From Persephonella sp. IF05-L8 (GTDB lineage: Bacteria; Aquificota; Aquificia; Aquificales; Hydrogenothermaceae), in the NCBI RefSeq assembly GCF_000703045.1, contig NZ_JNLJ01000001.1:496001-560000 (forward strand): a stretch of 64,000 bases of DNA. The letters are read 5' to 3'. Position numbers and translations under genes: made by a program. The notes below the pieces were generated by a model that saw nothing but the letters and a program-made list of their open reading frames with translations, made no database searches and had not been told where the DNA came from. Shown in pieces: positions 25,121 through 32,472 of this stretch. Position 1 is the stretch's first letter, and the number at the start of each line of letters is the position of its first letter.

Positions 25121-26641
25121 ATGCTTACAAATATCATAAGTGGGGGAGTTATTGGTATTGATGGATTTAAGGTGGAAGTTGAGGTAAATATATCCCAGGG
25201 ACTTCCACAATTTATAATTGTAGGACTTCCTGACACAGCTGTTAAGGAAAGTAAAGAAAGGGTAAAATCAGCAATAGTAAATAGTGGATTTTCTTTTCCT
25301 TTAAGGAAAATAACGGTCAATCTGGCTCCTGCTGATATTCAAAAGCAAGGAACACTTTACGACCTGCCTGTTGCAATTGGAATATTAAATCTTGCAGGGA
25401 TTTTTCCTTTTGAAGCTATTGAAAATACTGCATTTATCGGGGAACTTGCCCTTGATGGTTCAATCAGAAAAATAAAAGGAGTTCTGCCTATAGCTTATGG
25501 GCTTAAACAGACAGGAATTAAAAAACTGATACTTCCTGAAGAAAATGCCCCTGAAGCATCACTGGTGTCGGAGCTTGAGGTTTACGGGTTTCAACATCTA
25601 AAGGAAATCATTGGATTTTTAACAGGAGATATAAGCAAAAAACCAGTAAAACCTGATATTGAAGGGACATTCACAGATTATTCAGGATATCCGGATTTTT
25701 CTGAAATCAAGGGTCAGTATACTGTAAAAAGAGCTCTGGAAATTGCAGCAGCAGGATTTCATAATCTTCTTATGATTGGTTCTCCCGGTTCTGGAAAATC
25801 CATGATGGCAAAGGCTTTCCCTTCTATACTGCCCCCTATGAGCTTTGAGGAGGCAATAGAAACAACAAAGATACACAGCGTAGCCGGAATACTTGATGGA
25901 TATATAGTCAAAAACAGACCCTATAGAAACCCCCACCACACAATTTCTGATGTGGCATTAATAGGTGGAGGAAGTATTCCAAAGCCTGGAGAAGTATCAC
26001 TTGCCCATAATGGTGTTTTATTTTTAGATGAATTTCCTGAGTTTAAACGTTCCTCCCTTGAAGTTCTCCGTCAACCTATGGAAGACAGAGAGGTTGTTAT
26101 ATCCCGTGCCAGCGGCAGATATAAATTCCCTGCAAAATTTCAACTCCTTGCAGCTGCAAACCCATGTCCATGTGGATATAAAAATGACCCTATTAGAGAA
26201 TGTAGATGCACACCTGCAGAGATAAGAAGATACAGGAACAAGCTATCAGGTCCCATTGTTGATAGGATTGATATGATAACATGGGTTAATTCTGTTCCAC
26301 CTGAAGAGCTATCTAAAATGTCGTCAGGAGAAAGCTCACAACAAATCAGGGAAAGGGTTTTGAAAGCTGTTAATATACAGAAAAAAAGATTTAAAGACCT
26401 GCCTGTAAACTTTAACAGTGAGATGAGCCCATCTATGATTGAAAAATTTGTTATTTTAGAAAATGAGGCAGAAAATACCCTCAGACTTGCTGCCAAAAAG
26501 TATGGAATAACTGCACGGGGATTTCACAGAATACTAAAAGTAAGCCGAACAATTGCAGACCTTGAGAATTCAGAAAAAGTTAAGACCAAACATATAATAG
26601 AAGCCTTAAACTACAGATTAACAGAAGAAATGCTATCCTGA
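25121..26641 (+). CDS. comM: YifB/ComM-family Mg-chelatase-like AAA+ ATPase
   Basis: A 506-residue protein: N-terminal Lon-protease-like S5 domain (VEVNISQGLPQFIIVGLPD), AAA+ core with Walker A MIGSPGSGKSMMAKA, Walker B GVLFLDEFPEF and sensor region RQPMEDREVVISRASG, a Cys cluster ANPCPCGYKNDPIRECRC, and a C-terminal Mg-chelatase domain (ARGFHRILKVSRTIADL). ComM is a hexameric branch-migration helicase used in natural transformation. It starts at ATG behind GGGGGAG. Confidence 0.93.
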   Translation: MLTNIISGGVIGIDGFKVEVEVNISQGLPQFIIVGLPDTAVKESKERVKSAIVNSGFSFPLRKITVNLAPADIQKQGTLYDLPVAIGILNLAGIFPFEAIENTAFIGELALDGSIRKIKGVLPIAYGLKQTGIKKLILPEENAPEASLVSELEVYGFQHLKEIIGFLTGDISKKPVKPDIEGTFTDYSGYPDFSEIKGQYTVKRALEIAAAGFHNLLMIGSPGSGKSMMAKAFPSILPPMSFEEAIETTKIHSVAGILDGYIVKNRPYRNPHHTISDVALIGGGSIPKPGEVSLAHNGVLFLDEFPEFKRSSLEVLRQPMEDREVVISRASGRYKFPAKFQLLAAANPCPCGYKNDPIRECRCTPAEIRRYRNKLSGPIVDRIDMITWVNSVPPEELSKMSSGESSQQIRERVLKAVNIQKKRFKDLPVNFNSEMSPSMIEKFVILENEAENTLRLAAKKYGITARGFHRILKVSRTIADLENSEKVKTKHIIEALNYRLTEEMLS

Positions 26642-26668
26642 TAAAATATTAGAAAAAAGGGGAATAGA

Positions 26669-27436
26669 TTGACTATTGTAGAAAGTATAATTCTGGGTAT
26701 TGTTGAAGGTCTCACAGAATTTTTGCCTATATCCTCAACAGGACATTTGATACTGGTATCCCATCTACTTGGAATAAAACAAACAGATGCCCACAAAACA
26801 TTTGAGGTAGCAATTCAGCTTGGTTCAATTCTTGCAGTAGTTTTTTTATATAAAGACAGGCTTTTTAAAGATATTCAGCTATGGAAGAAACTGATTGTTG
26901 CATTTATCCCAACAGGTGTTCTGGGATTTTTACTTTATAAACTAATCAAATCCCTTTTCAGTCCTTATATTGTTTCTATAATGCTTATCGTTGGAGGGAT
27001 TATATTCCTTGTCATTGAATATTTACATAGAAATAAGGAATACCCTATAAAATCCCTTGATGATGTATCATATCCAAAGGCATTTTTAATTGGAGTTTTT
27101 CAGTCATTTGCAATGGTTCCAGGAACATCCCGTTCAGGAGCTTCTATTATAGGTGGTTTGCTTTTAGGCTTAGACCGTAAAGTTGCAGCAGAATTTTCGT
27201 TTCTGCTGGCAGTTCCTACAATGTTTGTGGCAACAGGATATGATGTGTATAAAAATTATCAGGTTTTTCAGCTGGATAACTGGATAACACTTATAACAGG
27301 TTTTATAACAGCCTTTATATTTGCCCTTATCTCTATCAAACTTCTGCTTGGATTTATAAAAAATCACACATTTATTCCTTTTGGGATTTATAGAATAATA
27401 CTGGGAATAATTTTTCTGTTTGTCGTTCTAAATTAG
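26669..27436 (+). CDS. uppP: Undecaprenyl-diphosphatase
   Basis: A 255-residue, multi-helix membrane enzyme that recycles the lipid carrier for peptidoglycan and O-antigen synthesis. Active-site signatures: GIVEGLTEFLPISSTGHLIL (first motif) and QSFAMVPGTSRSGASIIGG (second motif). It starts with TTG at 26669 behind AAAAGGGGA; this gives the expected family N-terminus. Confidence 0.95.
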   Translation: MTIVESIILGIVEGLTEFLPISSTGHLILVSHLLGIKQTDAHKTFEVAIQLGSILAVVFLYKDRLFKDIQLWKKLIVAFIPTGVLGFLLYKLIKSLFSPYIVSIMLIVGGIIFLVIEYLHRNKEYPIKSLDDVSYPKAFLIGVFQSFAMVPGTSRSGASIIGGLLLGLDRKVAAEFSFLLAVPTMFVATGYDVYKNYQVFQLDNWITLITGFITAFIFALISIKLLLGFIKNHTFIPFGIYRIILGIIFLFVVLN

Positions 27437-27480
27437 TTGATTTAGGTCAATGACTTTTTACCAAATTCTATTTTTAGAAT
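27437..27480 (+). promoter_or_regulatory. FNR/DNR-type box and -10 element upstream of the heme-copper operon
   Basis: TTGATTTAGGTCAA at 27437-27450 matches the CRP/FNR-family consensus TTGAT-N4-ATCAA at 9 of 10 fixed positions. TAGAAT at 27475-27480 is a good -10 box; a start near 27487 places the box centre at about -43, the usual activating position. This implies anaerobic or NO-responsive activation of the operon that follows. Confidence 0.7.
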
Positions 27481-27554
27481 TGCTATCAAATATCAATATA
27501 TAACATATCCACCCATCTGCAGGTCTCACTACTTTCTTCTGGGGGAGGTTTGCT

Positions 27555-28145
27555 ATGACAACTTCAGCTGAGGTATTATTTGCCCTTAAAGTAGTCTATA
27601 CCATTTATGCTATTTCTATTATGTCTCTGGTCGGGTGGTTTGCCTATCGGGTAACTAAAAAACCCAATTCATACAAGACCTGGTTAACTCCAAAAGTATT
27701 TTATACTTACCTTGCAATACTTGTATTGATAGGAGTTGGTATTCACATCCTGACCTACAACAAGATACCCTGGGTAGCGTGGGAGTTAAAAAAGCATAAA
27801 ATTCCTGCTGACAGAGAAATTCATATTGTTATGAAAAATCAGAAGTTTATTTTTCCTGAAGAAACTCCTATCACTATTAAATGTGGTGAGGTAGTTAAAT
27901 TCAACGTTGTTAGCGAAGATTTAACTTATGGATTTGGACTTTTCAGACCTGACCATTCCATGGTTTTTCAAATGCAGGTTGTTCCTGGACATAATAATGA
28001 ACTTTTGTGGCAGTTTCATGAAGATGGAACTTTTTATGTGCTAAGCACAGAATACTCAGGACCAAAAGGAGCCAGAATGAAAGTTCCTAATGCGTTTAAA
28101 GTGGAGGGATGCAATAAAAAGCTTTCTATGGAGGGGAAAAAATGA
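27555..28145 (+). CDS. Heme-copper oxidoreductase subunit II lacking the CuA site
   Basis: A 196-residue protein with two N-terminal transmembrane helices (residues about 8-30 and 47-66) and a periplasmic cupredoxin domain of the ba3 subunit II type. The segment aligned to the CuA loop CNQYCGLGHQNM reads STEYSGPKGARM (residues 164-175): both Cys are Ser, the His is Gly, and only the Met remains. The upstream His ligand (DVIHGF in ba3) is Tyr125 (TYGFGLF). So no CuA centre can form; electrons must come from quinol or through another route. The start has GGGGGAGG upstream. It overlaps subunit I by 4 bp. Confidence 0.85.
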   Translation: MTTSAEVLFALKVVYTIYAISIMSLVGWFAYRVTKKPNSYKTWLTPKVFYTYLAILVLIGVGIHILTYNKIPWVAWELKKHKIPADREIHIVMKNQKFIFPEETPITIKCGEVVKFNVVSEDLTYGFGLFRPDHSMVFQMQVVPGHNNELLWQFHEDGTFYVLSTEYSGPKGARMKVPNAFKVEGCNKKLSMEGKK

Positions 28146-29803
28146 ACATAAAAGATATTCTGATTAATGGAAACAAGGGAGGTCTAGATTACGAAGGGCT
28201 TAGCCCACTACAAAAGATAACCCTAAGATTTGTAGTTGTAGGTCTTATTTTTTACGGAGTTGCTGCCATTGAAGGAATGCTGATGAGAGGACAGGAGATA
28301 ACACCCCTTCCTTTTATTGATGACAGCCACTTTTTTGCTATTATGACAGTTCATCCAATAGTGGGAATTTTTGGTTCTACTTATCTTCTTGTTTTTGGAG
28401 CATTTTTGTTTCTTGTTCCTTATCTAATGAAAAAACCCATTTTTAGTATTAAACTTGCCAATTTTACATGGATAATAATGGCGGTTGGAACCGTATTAGT
28501 CTGGCTATCTGGTTTTATATATCATTATGCACCTCTATATACAATATACTGGCCTCTACCTGTTGATTTTACACAGTTTAATGTTGTCGGTGCAGTTATG
28601 TTTGTTGTTGGTATCGCTTTTATTATGATAGGAACACTGGCATTTATAGTTAACATATACGGAACGGTGTTTTACACACCAAAAGGACAGAAAAAACAGC
28701 CTATAAAACCTCTGCTTATGAGTGCGTTCGGAATAGATGGTTTCCTTAATATAGTAAACAAAATTAGAGGGAAAGAGCCTTACGTAAAAGAGCCTCCACT
28801 CTCACTGCCTATTGTTGCCATTTTCAGGGGTACTGTTGATACATTTTTAGATGCTCTGGTGATACTGGGGGCAGGTCTTCTGATACTATTTTTTATTGGA
28901 AACCAAGTTTTTCAGTGGGGATTACACTACCACAGTGTAGACTCACTCCTTTATAAAAATATTTTCTGGTGGGGATTAGACCTTATAGCAGATGGACTTG
29001 TTCTGATATATGTTGCAGGGACATGGTATCTGCTTGCAATGCTCATAACAGGAAGAAACCTTTTTATGCAAAATATAGCCAGAGCTGCACTTCTTCTTGA
29101 ACTGATAGTTTCATGGGCTGTATGGAGCCACCATCTTCTTTCAGACCAACCTCAGCCTGAGATAATGAAACTGGCATCAGGCGAGATGATAACAGCCTTT
29201 GAGCTTATAACACAGGGTCTTGCATTTTTTATTACCCTAACAACACTATGGCTTGCAAGACCCCTTAAAATGACAAATGAACTGAAATTTTTACTTGGTG
29301 GACTTCTTGGATTTGCCCTTGCAGTTCCTGCAGGAATAATACAGGCTGACCTTGGAATGAACAGGATACTCCACAATACCCAGTGGGTAGCAGGAGCTCA
29401 CTTCCATGTTGCGATACTTGTAGGTCTAACAATGACCCTTTACAGCGCCATATACATATTATTCCCTATCCTGACAAATAACTCTGTAAAACTATTTAGT
29501 CAGAAGCTTGCAAACTGGCATTTCTGGCTTCACCTTCTTGGAGGAATAGGAATGGGAGCATTTATGGGAATGGCAGGGATTGATGGTATGCTCAGAAGAC
29601 ATGTTTACACTGAAGGTGAATTTTTAGGTTATATGATACTGGCAGGTATCTGTGGTGCTATGCTTGTAGCTGCATGGGTAATCTTCATGTTTAATATAAT
29701 CGCCACAATAGGACTAAAAGGCTTAATAGGTATATTCAAACCATCAAAACTTCAAAAAGATATTATTGTTCCAGAAACAGCAGCAGCAGTCCAAAAGGGG
29801 TAA
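28142..29803 (+). CDS. Heme-copper oxidoreductase subunit I, NO-reductase-like (B-family related)
   Basis: A 553-residue protein with about 13 membrane helices. Heme ligands are kept: His71 (TVHPIVGIFGS), and His420 and His422 (VAGAHFHVA). The CuB pair His330-His331 is present (AVWSHHLLS). The third CuB ligand, normally the His of HPxxY, is Asp280 in FWWGLDLIADG, and the cross-linked Tyr position is Asp284. Without that Tyr, normal O2 reduction is unlikely. This pattern points to a nitric oxide reductase-like member, possibly the group I recall being called gNOR. Automatic annotation would probably say cytochrome c oxidase. Confidence 0.82.
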   Translation: MNIKDILINGNKGGLDYEGLSPLQKITLRFVVVGLIFYGVAAIEGMLMRGQEITPLPFIDDSHFFAIMTVHPIVGIFGSTYLLVFGAFLFLVPYLMKKPIFSIKLANFTWIIMAVGTVLVWLSGFIYHYAPLYTIYWPLPVDFTQFNVVGAVMFVVGIAFIMIGTLAFIVNIYGTVFYTPKGQKKQPIKPLLMSAFGIDGFLNIVNKIRGKEPYVKEPPLSLPIVAIFRGTVDTFLDALVILGAGLLILFFIGNQVFQWGLHYHSVDSLLYKNIFWWGLDLIADGLVLIYVAGTWYLLAMLITGRNLFMQNIARAALLLELIVSWAVWSHHLLSDQPQPEIMKLASGEMITAFELITQGLAFFITLTTLWLARPLKMTNELKFLLGGLLGFALAVPAGIIQADLGMNRILHNTQWVAGAHFHVAILVGLTMTLYSAIYILFPILTNNSVKLFSQKLANWHFWLHLLGGIGMGAFMGMAGIDGMLRRHVYTEGEFLGYMILAGICGAMLVAAWVIFMFNIIATIGLKGLIGIFKPSKLQKDIIVPETAAAVQKG

Positions 29804-29805
29804 CA

Positions 29806-30393
29806 ATGTTAGATTTGAAAAAGGTTGCAAAACAGATAAAAGAAGATGGACTGTATACTTTTATTTACAATGAAATGAAAGAAATAACAGGAAAAGGAGA
29901 ACTATCCGAGGAGGAAGTTCTCCATCTTCTCACTAAAGAACCAAAATTTCTTCAAGACTACAAAACCCTGAACACCCAGAGTGAAATAAGTAATATTCAG
30001 ATTGCCTATCAGGAGATTTACGATGATGACCCTCCTGAATGTAAAAAATTAAAACAAAAAATAAATGAATACAGGGAAGAATTGATAAGATTGGAACCTT
30101 TTGAAAACAAACCTGATAACATGCTTTATGCTCTATGGATAGGTTCAGCTGTTATATTTCTCATATTTGTTATACATAACCTTGTGGTTCTCTATACATT
30201 CTGGTATGAAAAATACCCAGCAGCTGTATATGCATCTTACATTGTTGTAATTATCTTAGGTTATCTATATTACCGAAAACGAATACAACAACATTACCTT
30301 AATCATACTAAATTCAAAAATATTGAAGAAAAGGTAAAGCTTCTAATAGAAACAGGTAAAAAGACCAAATGCTTAAAAAAAATTTATATATAA
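29806..30393 (+). CDS. Membrane protein of the heme-copper operon, unknown family
   Basis: A 195-residue protein starting three bases after subunit I. The N-terminal 105 residues are charged and helical (ELSEEEVLHLLTKEPKFLQD), with a single Cys in DDPPECKKLK. Two transmembrane helices follow (ALWIGSAVIFLIFVIHNLVV and AAVYASYIVVIILGYLYY), then a basic tail ending KKTKCLKKIYI. There is no obvious heme- or copper-binding motif, though a His lies in the first helix. It is likely an accessory or third subunit. I do not recognise the family. Confidence 0.6.
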   Translation: MLDLKKVAKQIKEDGLYTFIYNEMKEITGKGELSEEEVLHLLTKEPKFLQDYKTLNTQSEISNIQIAYQEIYDDDPPECKKLKQKINEYREELIRLEPFENKPDNMLYALWIGSAVIFLIFVIHNLVVLYTFWYEKYPAAVYASYIVVIILGYLYYRKRIQQHYLNHTKFKNIEEKVKLLIETGKKTKCLKKIYI

Positions 30394-30437
30394 GGGTTGC
30401 TCAACTCCTTACCTACCACAGCTAAACCTGTTTAACG

Positions 30438-30467
30438 CTGCTCCACTTGTGTGGAGCAGTATTTTTA
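30438..30467 (+). terminator. Terminator of the heme-copper operon
   Basis: CTGCTCCACTT-GTGTGGAGCAG (30438-30459) followed by TATTTTTATTT. Confidence 0.92.
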
Positions 30468-30468
30468 T

Positions 30469-30496
30469 TTGAAAAAAAAAAGCATTGAGATATAAT
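30469..30496 (+). promoter_or_regulatory. Promoter of tRNA-Ser
   Basis: TTGAAA at 30469-30474 and TATAAT at 30491-30496, 16 bp apart, with the tRNA 5' end 15 bases beyond the -10. Confidence 0.7.
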
Positions 30497-30511
30497 ATAA
30501 TCTCCTCAAAA

Positions 30512-30604
30512 GGAGAGGTGGCCGAGCGGTCGAAGGCGGCTCCCTGCTAAGGAGTTGAGCGGGTTTTCCCCGCTCCGAGGGTTCAAATCCCTCCCTCTCC
30601 GCCA
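30512..30604 (+). tRNA. tRNA-Ser (anticodon GCU)
   Basis: 93 nt with acceptor GGAGAGG (30512-30518) pairing with CCTCTCC (30594-30600), discriminator G and an encoded CCA at 30602-30604. The anticodon loop CTGCTAA gives GCU (30546-30548), reading AGC/AGU. There is a long variable arm (GAGCGGGTTTTCCCCGCTC), as expected of class II tRNA-Ser, and a T loop GTTCAAATC. Confidence 0.96.
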
Positions 30605-30736
30605 TTGAATTTTTTTATATTTCTCACAAGCAGGCTTTTTCTCCCTTCCCTCCGAAAAAAAGTATTGCACTAATTGAAAAAACAAAATAAACTGGAAGTG
30701 AACTCATTTCTATCTATAAAGGAGGAAATTTATTTT

Positions 30737-31426
30737 ATGACATTAAAAATCTGTCCACAATGTAAAACAGAAAACCCTGAAAATGCCAAATTCTGTCAGA
30801 ACTGTGGTTTCAACTTAGAAGAGGTTCAAACCTTTCAAGATATTTCCACAGAAGAAACAGGGCAATTACAGCAGCAATTTTCACAAACAGATTACAAAGA
30901 ACCTACCAAAACGCAAAGTTCCGCTACCAACAGTAACGATTTTAAGCAAAATTATACGGAAAATCTGGTGGAAACAAATCCACAACTTGAAAAGGATATA
31001 GATTTATGGAGTGCTTACGTTCAAACAAAATTGGACTATTACATACCTAAATTTGTCAAATTTAAAACTCAGGATAAAAAAGTTAGCTGGAACTGGCCTG
31101 CTTTTTTCTTCAGCCCCTTATGGTTTGCATATAGAAAAATGCTATGGTACGGAGTTCTTGTAATGATTTTAAGCATTATTCCACTGGTTGGTCTAATTGT
31201 ATCTATTTTATCGGGAATATTTGGGAATTATCTTTATTACAGGAAAACAAATGAGGAAGTTCAAAAAGCTTTAATCCAGAGTAAATATCTGAATACTGAC
31301 CCGAAAATTATATTAGCCGGTAAGGGAGGTACAAGTGTAGCTAACCTATTTATTTTATTCGGTATAGCATTAATTCTTAGTATTGTTTATACAATATTCA
31401 TAGCTGCTCTTGGGGGTGGTTATTAA
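30737..31426 (+). CDS. Zinc-ribbon DUF2628 membrane protein
   Basis: The start is ATG 30737, preceded by AAAGGAGGAAATT; an upstream in-frame ATG (30674) lacks a ribosome site. The 229-residue protein has an N-terminal zinc ribbon (CPQCKTENPENAKFCQNCGF), a Gln/Thr/Ser-rich linker (about residues 30-85), then a DUF2628 membrane part (WNWPAFFFSPLWFAYRKMLW) with three or four helices, ending GGGY. The role is unknown; such proteins are often envelope-associated. Confidence 0.8.
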   Translation: MTLKICPQCKTENPENAKFCQNCGFNLEEVQTFQDISTEETGQLQQQFSQTDYKEPTKTQSSATNSNDFKQNYTENLVETNPQLEKDIDLWSAYVQTKLDYYIPKFVKFKTQDKKVSWNWPAFFFSPLWFAYRKMLWYGVLVMILSIIPLVGLIVSILSGIFGNYLYYRKTNEEVQKALIQSKYLNTDPKIILAGKGGTSVANLFILFGIALILSIVYTIFIAALGGGY

Positions 31427-31449
31427 ACTTTCAACAGGGAAAGGTTTCT

Positions 31450-32472
31450 ATGGAGAAGTTTAAAATACCTGTTGCTTTAGTATCCCTCGCTTCCGTTGTT
31501 ATTATAATAGCTGGACTAAAAGCTGCTCAGGATATGGTGGTTCAGCTTCTTCTTGCCCTTTTCTTTGCAATAATGTTTCTCCCTCTTTTCAAATTCTTTA
31601 ACAAAAGATTTCCTAAATGGCTATCACTTACTATTGTTCTTATGATAAATCTATTTTTTATTTACATTCTTGCTTTAACAGTGGTTAGCTCTGTAAATGA
31701 ATTTAGAGAAAATCTTGGTGAATACCAGCAAAAAATGAGTTATTACATGGAATACGGCAGTATTATTCTTGAGAAAGCTGGAATTCCAAGTCCACCCTCC
31801 ATACAACTTAAATTTGTAAATCCGTCTTTTATATTCCAGTTTATCTCTAATTCCTTATTAAGTTTTGGTAACATTCTGGCAAATGCAGCCTTTATTCTTA
31901 TTTTGGCAGCATTTATTCTGCTTGAAAGTGATATTTTTTCAAAGAAACTAAAAGTAATAGCAAAAGGTAAAGATGCCCATAAACTTGTTGACCAGTTTTT
32001 TGATAGTGTCATTGAGTATATGAAAATAAAAACAATAATGTCTTTTCTAACAGGATTTTTTGCGTGGATTGTCCTGGCTATTTTAGGTGTTGATTTTGCT
32101 CTTTTATGGGGAATTCTTACATTTTTGCTAAATTTTATACCCACAATAGGCTCAATTATTGCTGCAATTCCCCCTGTTATTATCGCTCTTATAGACTGTG
32201 GTGTGTGGCAGGCTGTGGTAGTAGCTGTTTGGTATGTCATTATAAACATGATTATAGGAAATATTATAGAGCCTAAGTTAATGGGTAAAGGTGTAGGATT
32301 ATCTCCTCTCATAGTTCTTCTTTCTCTTGTATTCTGGGGGTGGGTTCTTGGAACAGTTGGAATGTTTCTATCAATTCCCCTTACCATAATAGCAAAAATG
32401 GCATTTGAACTGAAAGAAGAAACCAGATGGATTGCTATTCTGATGGATAGCGATGTCAGAGAAAAAGCCTAA
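31450..32472 (+). CDS. AI-2E family transporter (PerM/YdiK type)
   Basis: A 340-residue, eight-helix inner-membrane protein of the PerM/TqsA family: FMPLFKFFNKRFPKWLSL-like N-terminal region (here AIMFLPLFKFFNKRFPKWLS), ALLWGILTFLLNFIPTIGSI, IEPKLMGKGVGLSPLIVLL and FWGWVLGTVGMFLSIPLTI are the conserved C-terminal segments. Members include AI-2 exporters, Na+/H+ antiporters and permeases of unknown substrate; nothing here fixes the substrate. Confidence 0.88.
   Translation: MEKFKIPVALVSLASVVIIIAGLKAAQDMVVQLLLALFFAIMFLPLFKFFNKRFPKWLSLTIVLMINLFFIYILALTVVSSVNEFRENLGEYQQKMSYYMEYGSIILEKAGIPSPPSIQLKFVNPSFIFQFISNSLLSFGNILANAAFILILAAFILLESDIFSKKLKVIAKGKDAHKLVDQFFDSVIEYMKIKTIMSFLTGFFAWIVLAILGVDFALLWGILTFLLNFIPTIGSIIAAIPPVIIALIDCGVWQAVVVAVWYVIINMIIGNIIEPKLMGKGVGLSPLIVLLSLVFWGWVLGTVGMFLSIPLTIIAKMAFELKEETRWIAILMDSDVREKA

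Follow-up and report, generated by a model that had tools for sequence, protein, structure and literature searches.

A candidate third component of the Asp-type nitric oxide reductase gNOR, encoded directly downstream of its catalytic subunit

We found that the gene following the catalytic subunit gene of a gNOR operon in Persephonella sp. IF05-L8 (ORF3) is inherited together with the enzyme in Aquificota and Campylobacteria, and we propose that its product serves gNOR as a dedicated third component, in all likelihood as an accessory subunit that stays bound, with its membrane hairpin beside subunit I and its soluble domain on a loop of that subunit. Judged from sequence, we give this reading a probability of about one half. 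The NO reductase gNOR has been little studied; the organisms in which it was found here are vent and sulfur bacteria from two phyla, and expressing norG and norH alone would miss such a third part.

Gene order and identity of the oxidoreductase

The analyzed DNA, referred to as the window, is a stretch of 64,000 nucleotides, and the positions below are those of the window. The operon comprises the following features, where long-form operons are those with ORF3 and short-form operons those with a two-helix miniprotein in its place.

27555..28145, + strand: gNOR subunit II, a cupredoxin-type domain on a membrane anchor, CuA ligands absent (weak CoxB match, Ser for the CuA Cys)
28142..29803, + strand: gNOR subunit I, 553 aa (PF00115, E = 1.6e-51; D280 and D284)
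28979-28981 and 28991-28993, + strand: codons of D280 and D284 in subunit I, kept in 54/54 rows
28769..28810, + strand: subunit I residues 210-223, GKEPYVKEPPLSLP, TM4-TM5 loop and proposed docking site (in long-form operons, deleted in seven short-form operons)
29806..30393, + strand: ORF3, proposed third gNOR component, 195 aa (ATG start, 48 relatives, selection)
29806..30117, + strand: ORF3 residues 1-104, acidic all-helical domain, predicted to be cytoplasmic (Y52, N87, L93, and E97 invariant)
30118..30276, + strand: ORF3 residues 105-157, two-helix membrane hairpin, then a basic stretch (hydropathy, model helices, 48 rows)
30437..30460, + strand: intrinsic terminator of the operon (stem and T-rich tail)

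The subunit I stop codon at 29803 is followed after 2 nt by the ORF3 ATG at 29806, in agreement with the 195-aa protein tightly coupled to subunit I that a sequence-only reading of this DNA had described, and ORF3 is present as a single copy in its own genome. The terminator, which that reading had also placed behind ORF3, was found at 30437-30460 with a 10-bp stem followed by a T-rich tail (z = −5.1 relative to shuffled sequences, −19 kcal/mol), and a scan of positions 26000-32000 overall gave 3 terminator-like sites against 3.7 expected, i.e., no excess. A tRNA-Ser gene (30512-30604) lies downstream of the terminator. Just 3' of this tRNA, a 250-aa protein is encoded (30674-31426), in which an N-terminal zinc-ribbon-like CPQC/CQNC motif and hydrophobic stretches were seen by eye.

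Subunit II matched CoxB weakly (E = 3.4e-7, under the curated cut-off). When the sequence was read against the CuA motif, both CuA Cys were found to be Ser and the His to be replaced (STEYSGPKGARM, 28044-28079), and the CuA ligands are likewise lost in the aligned subunit II sequences of relatives, so that the earlier description of a CuA-less oxidoreductase stands. In subunit I, the Asp-containing nature of which had also been recognized, D280 and D284 align with the CuB His of helix VI and the active-site Tyr of the Thermus thermophilus ba3 oxidase. Both Asp are invariant in 54/54 tree rows (42 genomes, 12 of which were entered twice), as are the other His of the active site. An Asp (D284) where oxygen reductases have Tyr and a cupredoxin-type second subunit, the CoxB-like match of which is weak and below the cut-off, are features of gNOR. 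Table A4 of PMC8756737 characterizes gNOR by the active-site D and lists it for Sulfurimonas, Sulfurovum, and Persephonella. On its sequence, the window operon is that of gNOR, the Asp-type nitric oxide reductase, and since the type is listed in this table, the CuA-less oxidoreductase of the earlier reading is an enzyme already known. The gNOR passages of PMC8906906 describe a quinone-oxidizing enzyme, for which norGH are given as the genes in another organism.

The window enzyme would reduce NO, and the genomic support for this activity is the co-occurrence of NosZ, which was found in 36/46 Campylobacteria gNOR genomes compared to 127/397 Campylobacteria genomes overall and is in line with denitrification. 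The Persephonella genome itself also encodes a qNOR-type reductase (C1:942619-943932, L133) and a cbb3-type oxidase (C1:1051486-1052742, L134). With a qNOR-type gene besides gNOR, NO reductases of two kinds seem to be present in this genome. The qNOR-type reductase (767 aa) combines PF00115 with a NorB cytochrome c-like domain, and its neighbor is a fused siroheme decarboxylase-like gene.

Anatomy and conservation of ORF3

Hydropathy and model helices divide ORF3 into a charged, non-membrane part (residues 1-104) and two hydrophobic stretches near residues 105-129 and 138-157, which bears out the charged N-terminal domain and the two membrane helices noted previously. The AlphaFold model of the protein is all-helical (pLDDT 91.3, pTM 0.75). 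ORF3 is a real gene under purifying selection, with relatives of 51-86% identity found down to Nitratiruptor and a dN of ∼5-11% of dS in five of the six pairs with estimable dS (three near saturation). In 48/48 rows, the residues that follow the second helix carry a net positive charge and, by the positive-inside rule, both ends of the protein are predicted to be cytoplasmic.

Four residues (Y52, N87, L93, and E97) are invariant over the 48 rows. No fully conserved Cys, His, or Met was observed in these rows apart from the start Met, the most common Cys being C79 and C189 in 33 and 32 of them, respectively. As there is no Cys or His among the invariant residues, ORF3 probably does not act as the subunit for electron entry. 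The known qNOR accepts quinol with no additional subunit, which argues against the idea, raised in the sequence-only reading, that ORF3 supplies the electron-entry or quinol site in place of CuA. A site of this kind would suit gNOR as an enzyme without CuA, described as quinone-oxidizing in the gNOR passages of PMC8906906. However, such a role is very improbable, since besides the lack of invariant Cys, His, or Met in the 48 relatives, the soluble domain is predicted to be cytoplasmic and seven gNOR operons do without such a domain; no positive evidence was found for the quinol function, and in one branch a two-helix miniprotein is all that stands in this place.

No match above a curated cut-off was obtained in Pfam or NCBIfam for ORF3, nor for the sets of 13 and 48 relatives. 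The matches were weak and scattered, the best family match listed for the window ORF3 scoring 21.7 bits against a cut-off of 93, and the earlier remark that no family was known for the protein is thus upheld for these collections. PDB sequence searches with ORF3 and two profiles gave a best E of 0.096, Foldseek searches of the PDB with two ORF3 models yielded no match at E ≤ 0.001, and the best VIA-align match of the ORF3 model, a coiled coil of PI3K p85 (Z = 8.9), is within the range of common helical arrangements. A search of open-licence PMC papers for gNOR, its operon, or a third subunit gave no description of ORF3.

ORF3 co-occurs with gNOR in the genomes searched

Relatives of ORF3 were detected in 11/136 Aquificota genomes (48-row profile) and in 39/397 Campylobacteria genomes; a single-protein query matched 12/112 genomes of the order, one of them spuriously. 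All 11 ORF3-bearing Aquificota genomes contain gNOR subunit I, and in a twelfth Aquificota genome (G091, among the 112 genomes of the order searched) subunit I runs off the contig end. In the 397 Campylobacteria genomes, subunit I was found in 46 and ORF3 in 39, all of which are within the 46. ORF3 without gNOR was never observed among the 397 Campylobacteria and 136 Aquificota genomes. In all 50 ORF3 genomes the gene is located downstream of subunit I on the same strand, in the 39 Campylobacteria 12-204 nt past the end of the subunit I match. Homologues lying mainly away from such oxidoreductases, an outcome that the sequence-only reading had set in advance as speaking against it, were not seen, because every ORF3 genome (50/50) has the Asp-containing subunit I with the gene after it.

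The gap between the subunit I stop and the ORF3 start ranges from −8 to 137 nt in 45/47 distinct cases, the two others being the second tandem copy in G417 and a locus with an internal stop in the subunit I match (L025). Subunit genes are usually packed more tightly than in those Campylobacteria where the gap reaches up to 137 nt. When 29 neighborhoods were compared with a simple gene caller, which missed ORF3 in some loci in which the profile finds it, the gNOR triad stayed together and most of the flanking genes differed. Moreover, the distances between ORF3 sequences correlate with those between subunit I sequences (r = 0.956, 34 pairs), as co-inheritance predicts.

The wide gaps in some Campylobacteria, together with a cytoplasmic domain on a hairpin, would also suit a regulator or NO sensor in the membrane, encoded in the same operon but not binding the enzyme. 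We consider this improbable, as ORF3 is never found without gNOR in the genomes searched of either phylum, stays by gNOR while the flanks change, and is linked to a loop of subunit I (see below).

Two further matches were discarded. The one in G001 (L020, E = 4e-4) lies within a 708-aa frame of another protein and was gone with the wider profile, while a second match in G080 (E = 8e-6) lies within a 601-aa frame and was taken as chance. G488 contains a second ORF3 fragment on another contig. In G417, ORF3 is duplicated in tandem (L063:220-810 and 818-1411, − strand), the second copy being more divergent. Neither ORF3 nor subunit I was matched on plasmids. In five Campylobacteria neighborhoods (L101-L105), a membrane protein of ∼162-171 aa is encoded 3' of the gNOR genes on the same strand.

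Genomes without ORF3 encode a two-helix miniprotein

Seven of the 46 Campylobacteria gNOR genomes do not contain ORF3. The six of these with a full-length subunit I make up one side of a branch in an unrooted tree (100/100, stem 0.50). G454 was considered as a contig-edge case, but this was rejected since its contig runs on for 12 kb and ORF3 is absent; it shares 80-85% identity with the short-form branch and at most 68% with the others. In G166 (without ORF3) and G170 (with ORF3), the same genes are found on both sides, so that ORF3 was cleanly lost or gained.

In 7/7 genomes without ORF3, subunit I is followed, at −4 to +2 nt from its stop, by an ORF of 50-66 aa with two hydrophobic helices. 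These unannotated miniproteins are encoded at the following positions.

L071:3126-3275
L070:3129-3281
L072:3138-3290
L064:3114-3302
L073:3115-3291
L152:1126-1296
L062:1289-1486, − strand

A coupled hydrophobic follower of this kind was seen for 2/242 control ORFs, both of which are subunit I genes of the short-form branch. The miniproteins resemble one another, and the closest pair differs by 29.5 silent changes versus 7.5 replacements. Homology between the miniproteins and the ORF3 hairpin was not supported (hhalign probability 1%). With the long and the short form taken together, a third gene follows subunit I in 46/46 Campylobacteria and 11/12 Aquificota gNOR genomes, the twelfth being cut by the contig end. 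The presence of a mini-version in the same place in the ORF3-less branch suggests that the "two-part" enzyme is really a three-part one.

A loop of subunit I varies with the form of the third gene

The short-form subunit I has lost six residues from its TM4-TM5 loop. The motif G[KR]xPYxKEP is present in 46/48 long-form rows and in 0/6 short-form rows, and the two long-form rows without the exact KEP represent one genome with KDP instead. Of 16 further loci, 15 contain the loop and one, G454, does not; in the combined count, GKxPYxK[ED]P was found in 39/39 long-form and 0/7 short-form Campylobacteria genomes. The neighboring FRGT[VI]DTFLDA is likewise present in 48/48 long-form versus 0/6 short-form rows. 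At 266 conserved positions, 25 branch-specific changes were identified, 12 of which are inside 46 residues at the loop (scan p = 5e-5); the same scan without gap columns gave 9/22 changes (p = 0.01), and no similar clustering at the loop was observed in three other clades. The link between the loop and the form of the third gene represents one evolutionary event and was noticed after the fact.

The usual topology of the superfamily puts the TM4-TM5 loop of subunit I in the cytoplasm. Since this loop is also rich in Lys and Arg, it is predicted to face the cytoplasm, on the side of the ORF3 domain.

Proposed role of ORF3

In the mechanism that we propose, the membrane hairpin of ORF3 would adjoin the catalytic subunit I, and its acidic helical N-terminal domain would dock from the cytoplasmic side on the TM4-TM5 loop (residues 210-223). 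Docked in this way, ORF3 would stabilize or tune gNOR and would not carry electrons. In one branch of the Campylobacteria, the minimal two-helix protein would fill the place, with the docking loop of subunit I lost. Tentatively, this could be extended to a gNOR of three subunits throughout Aquificota and Campylobacteria, with an interchangeable long form, in which a cytoplasmic domain for regulation or metal delivery is docked on the loop, and a two-helix form with the loop deletion. If this three-subunit reading is true, the swap amounts to a natural experiment in which a structural role of the hairpin can be told apart from a cytoplasmic role of the domain. The long/short swap, together with the loop, also offers a direct mutational test of the function and the binding place of this part.

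The gNOR (norGH) of the literature shares with the window operon the active-site Asp, the CuA-less cupredoxin-type subunit II, and its reported occurrence in Persephonella. In the gNOR passages of PMC8756737 and PMC8906906, however, it is described with two subunits or genes and ORF3 is not mentioned, whereas the window operon has a third gene. As PMC8906906 in these passages names only norGH, in another organism, and our survey of ORF3 covered Aquificota and Campylobacteria, the third gene of gNOR may not be universal.

A third part is described for the Thermus cNOR, which PMC5015936 treats as a heterotrimer with NorH as its third subunit. We found the Thermus norC-norB-norH operon on pTHTHE1601; NorH was not found on Thermus oshimai plasmids. 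Like ORF3, NorH is a small protein of the membrane, and its gene comes immediately after that of the catalytic subunit, but NorH comprises 98 aa without a large soluble domain, while ORF3 has 195 aa and includes one. No similarity between the two sequences was detected (hhalign probability 0.2%, BLASTP E = 3.4). ORF3 may thus work, by analogy, like a NorH-type third part, and by sequence it is not a NorH.

According to the NorQ/NorD passages of PMC9976466, these proteins engage the catalytic subunit of cNOR at its cytoplasmic face, the side on which the ORF3 domain is predicted, and require cytoplasmic carboxylates of NorB. In a similar manner, ORF3 could be a gNOR-specific assembly or metal-insertion factor that acts transiently on the cytoplasmic face of subunit I, a possibility that we regard as less likely than a stable subunit. 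It would fit the finding that NorQ (PF08406) is missing from 27/28 gNOR genomes examined, and non-heme iron would seem to suit a site made up of two His and two Asp. However, the six short-form genomes examined also have no NorQ and their miniprotein lacks such a domain, and qNOR needs no factor of this kind (PMC9976466, same passages). NorQ belongs to the AAA+ ATPases and NorD to the VWA proteins, whereas ORF3, a membrane protein made of helices, matched neither. Between an assembly factor and a stable accessory subunit, we favor the latter, since the place after subunit I is occupied even where there is only a miniprotein, and a bare hairpin is more in keeping with a structural part. The sole CbbQ/NorQ-type match among the 28 gNOR genomes was located in L132 (G242:C1:396804-397055).
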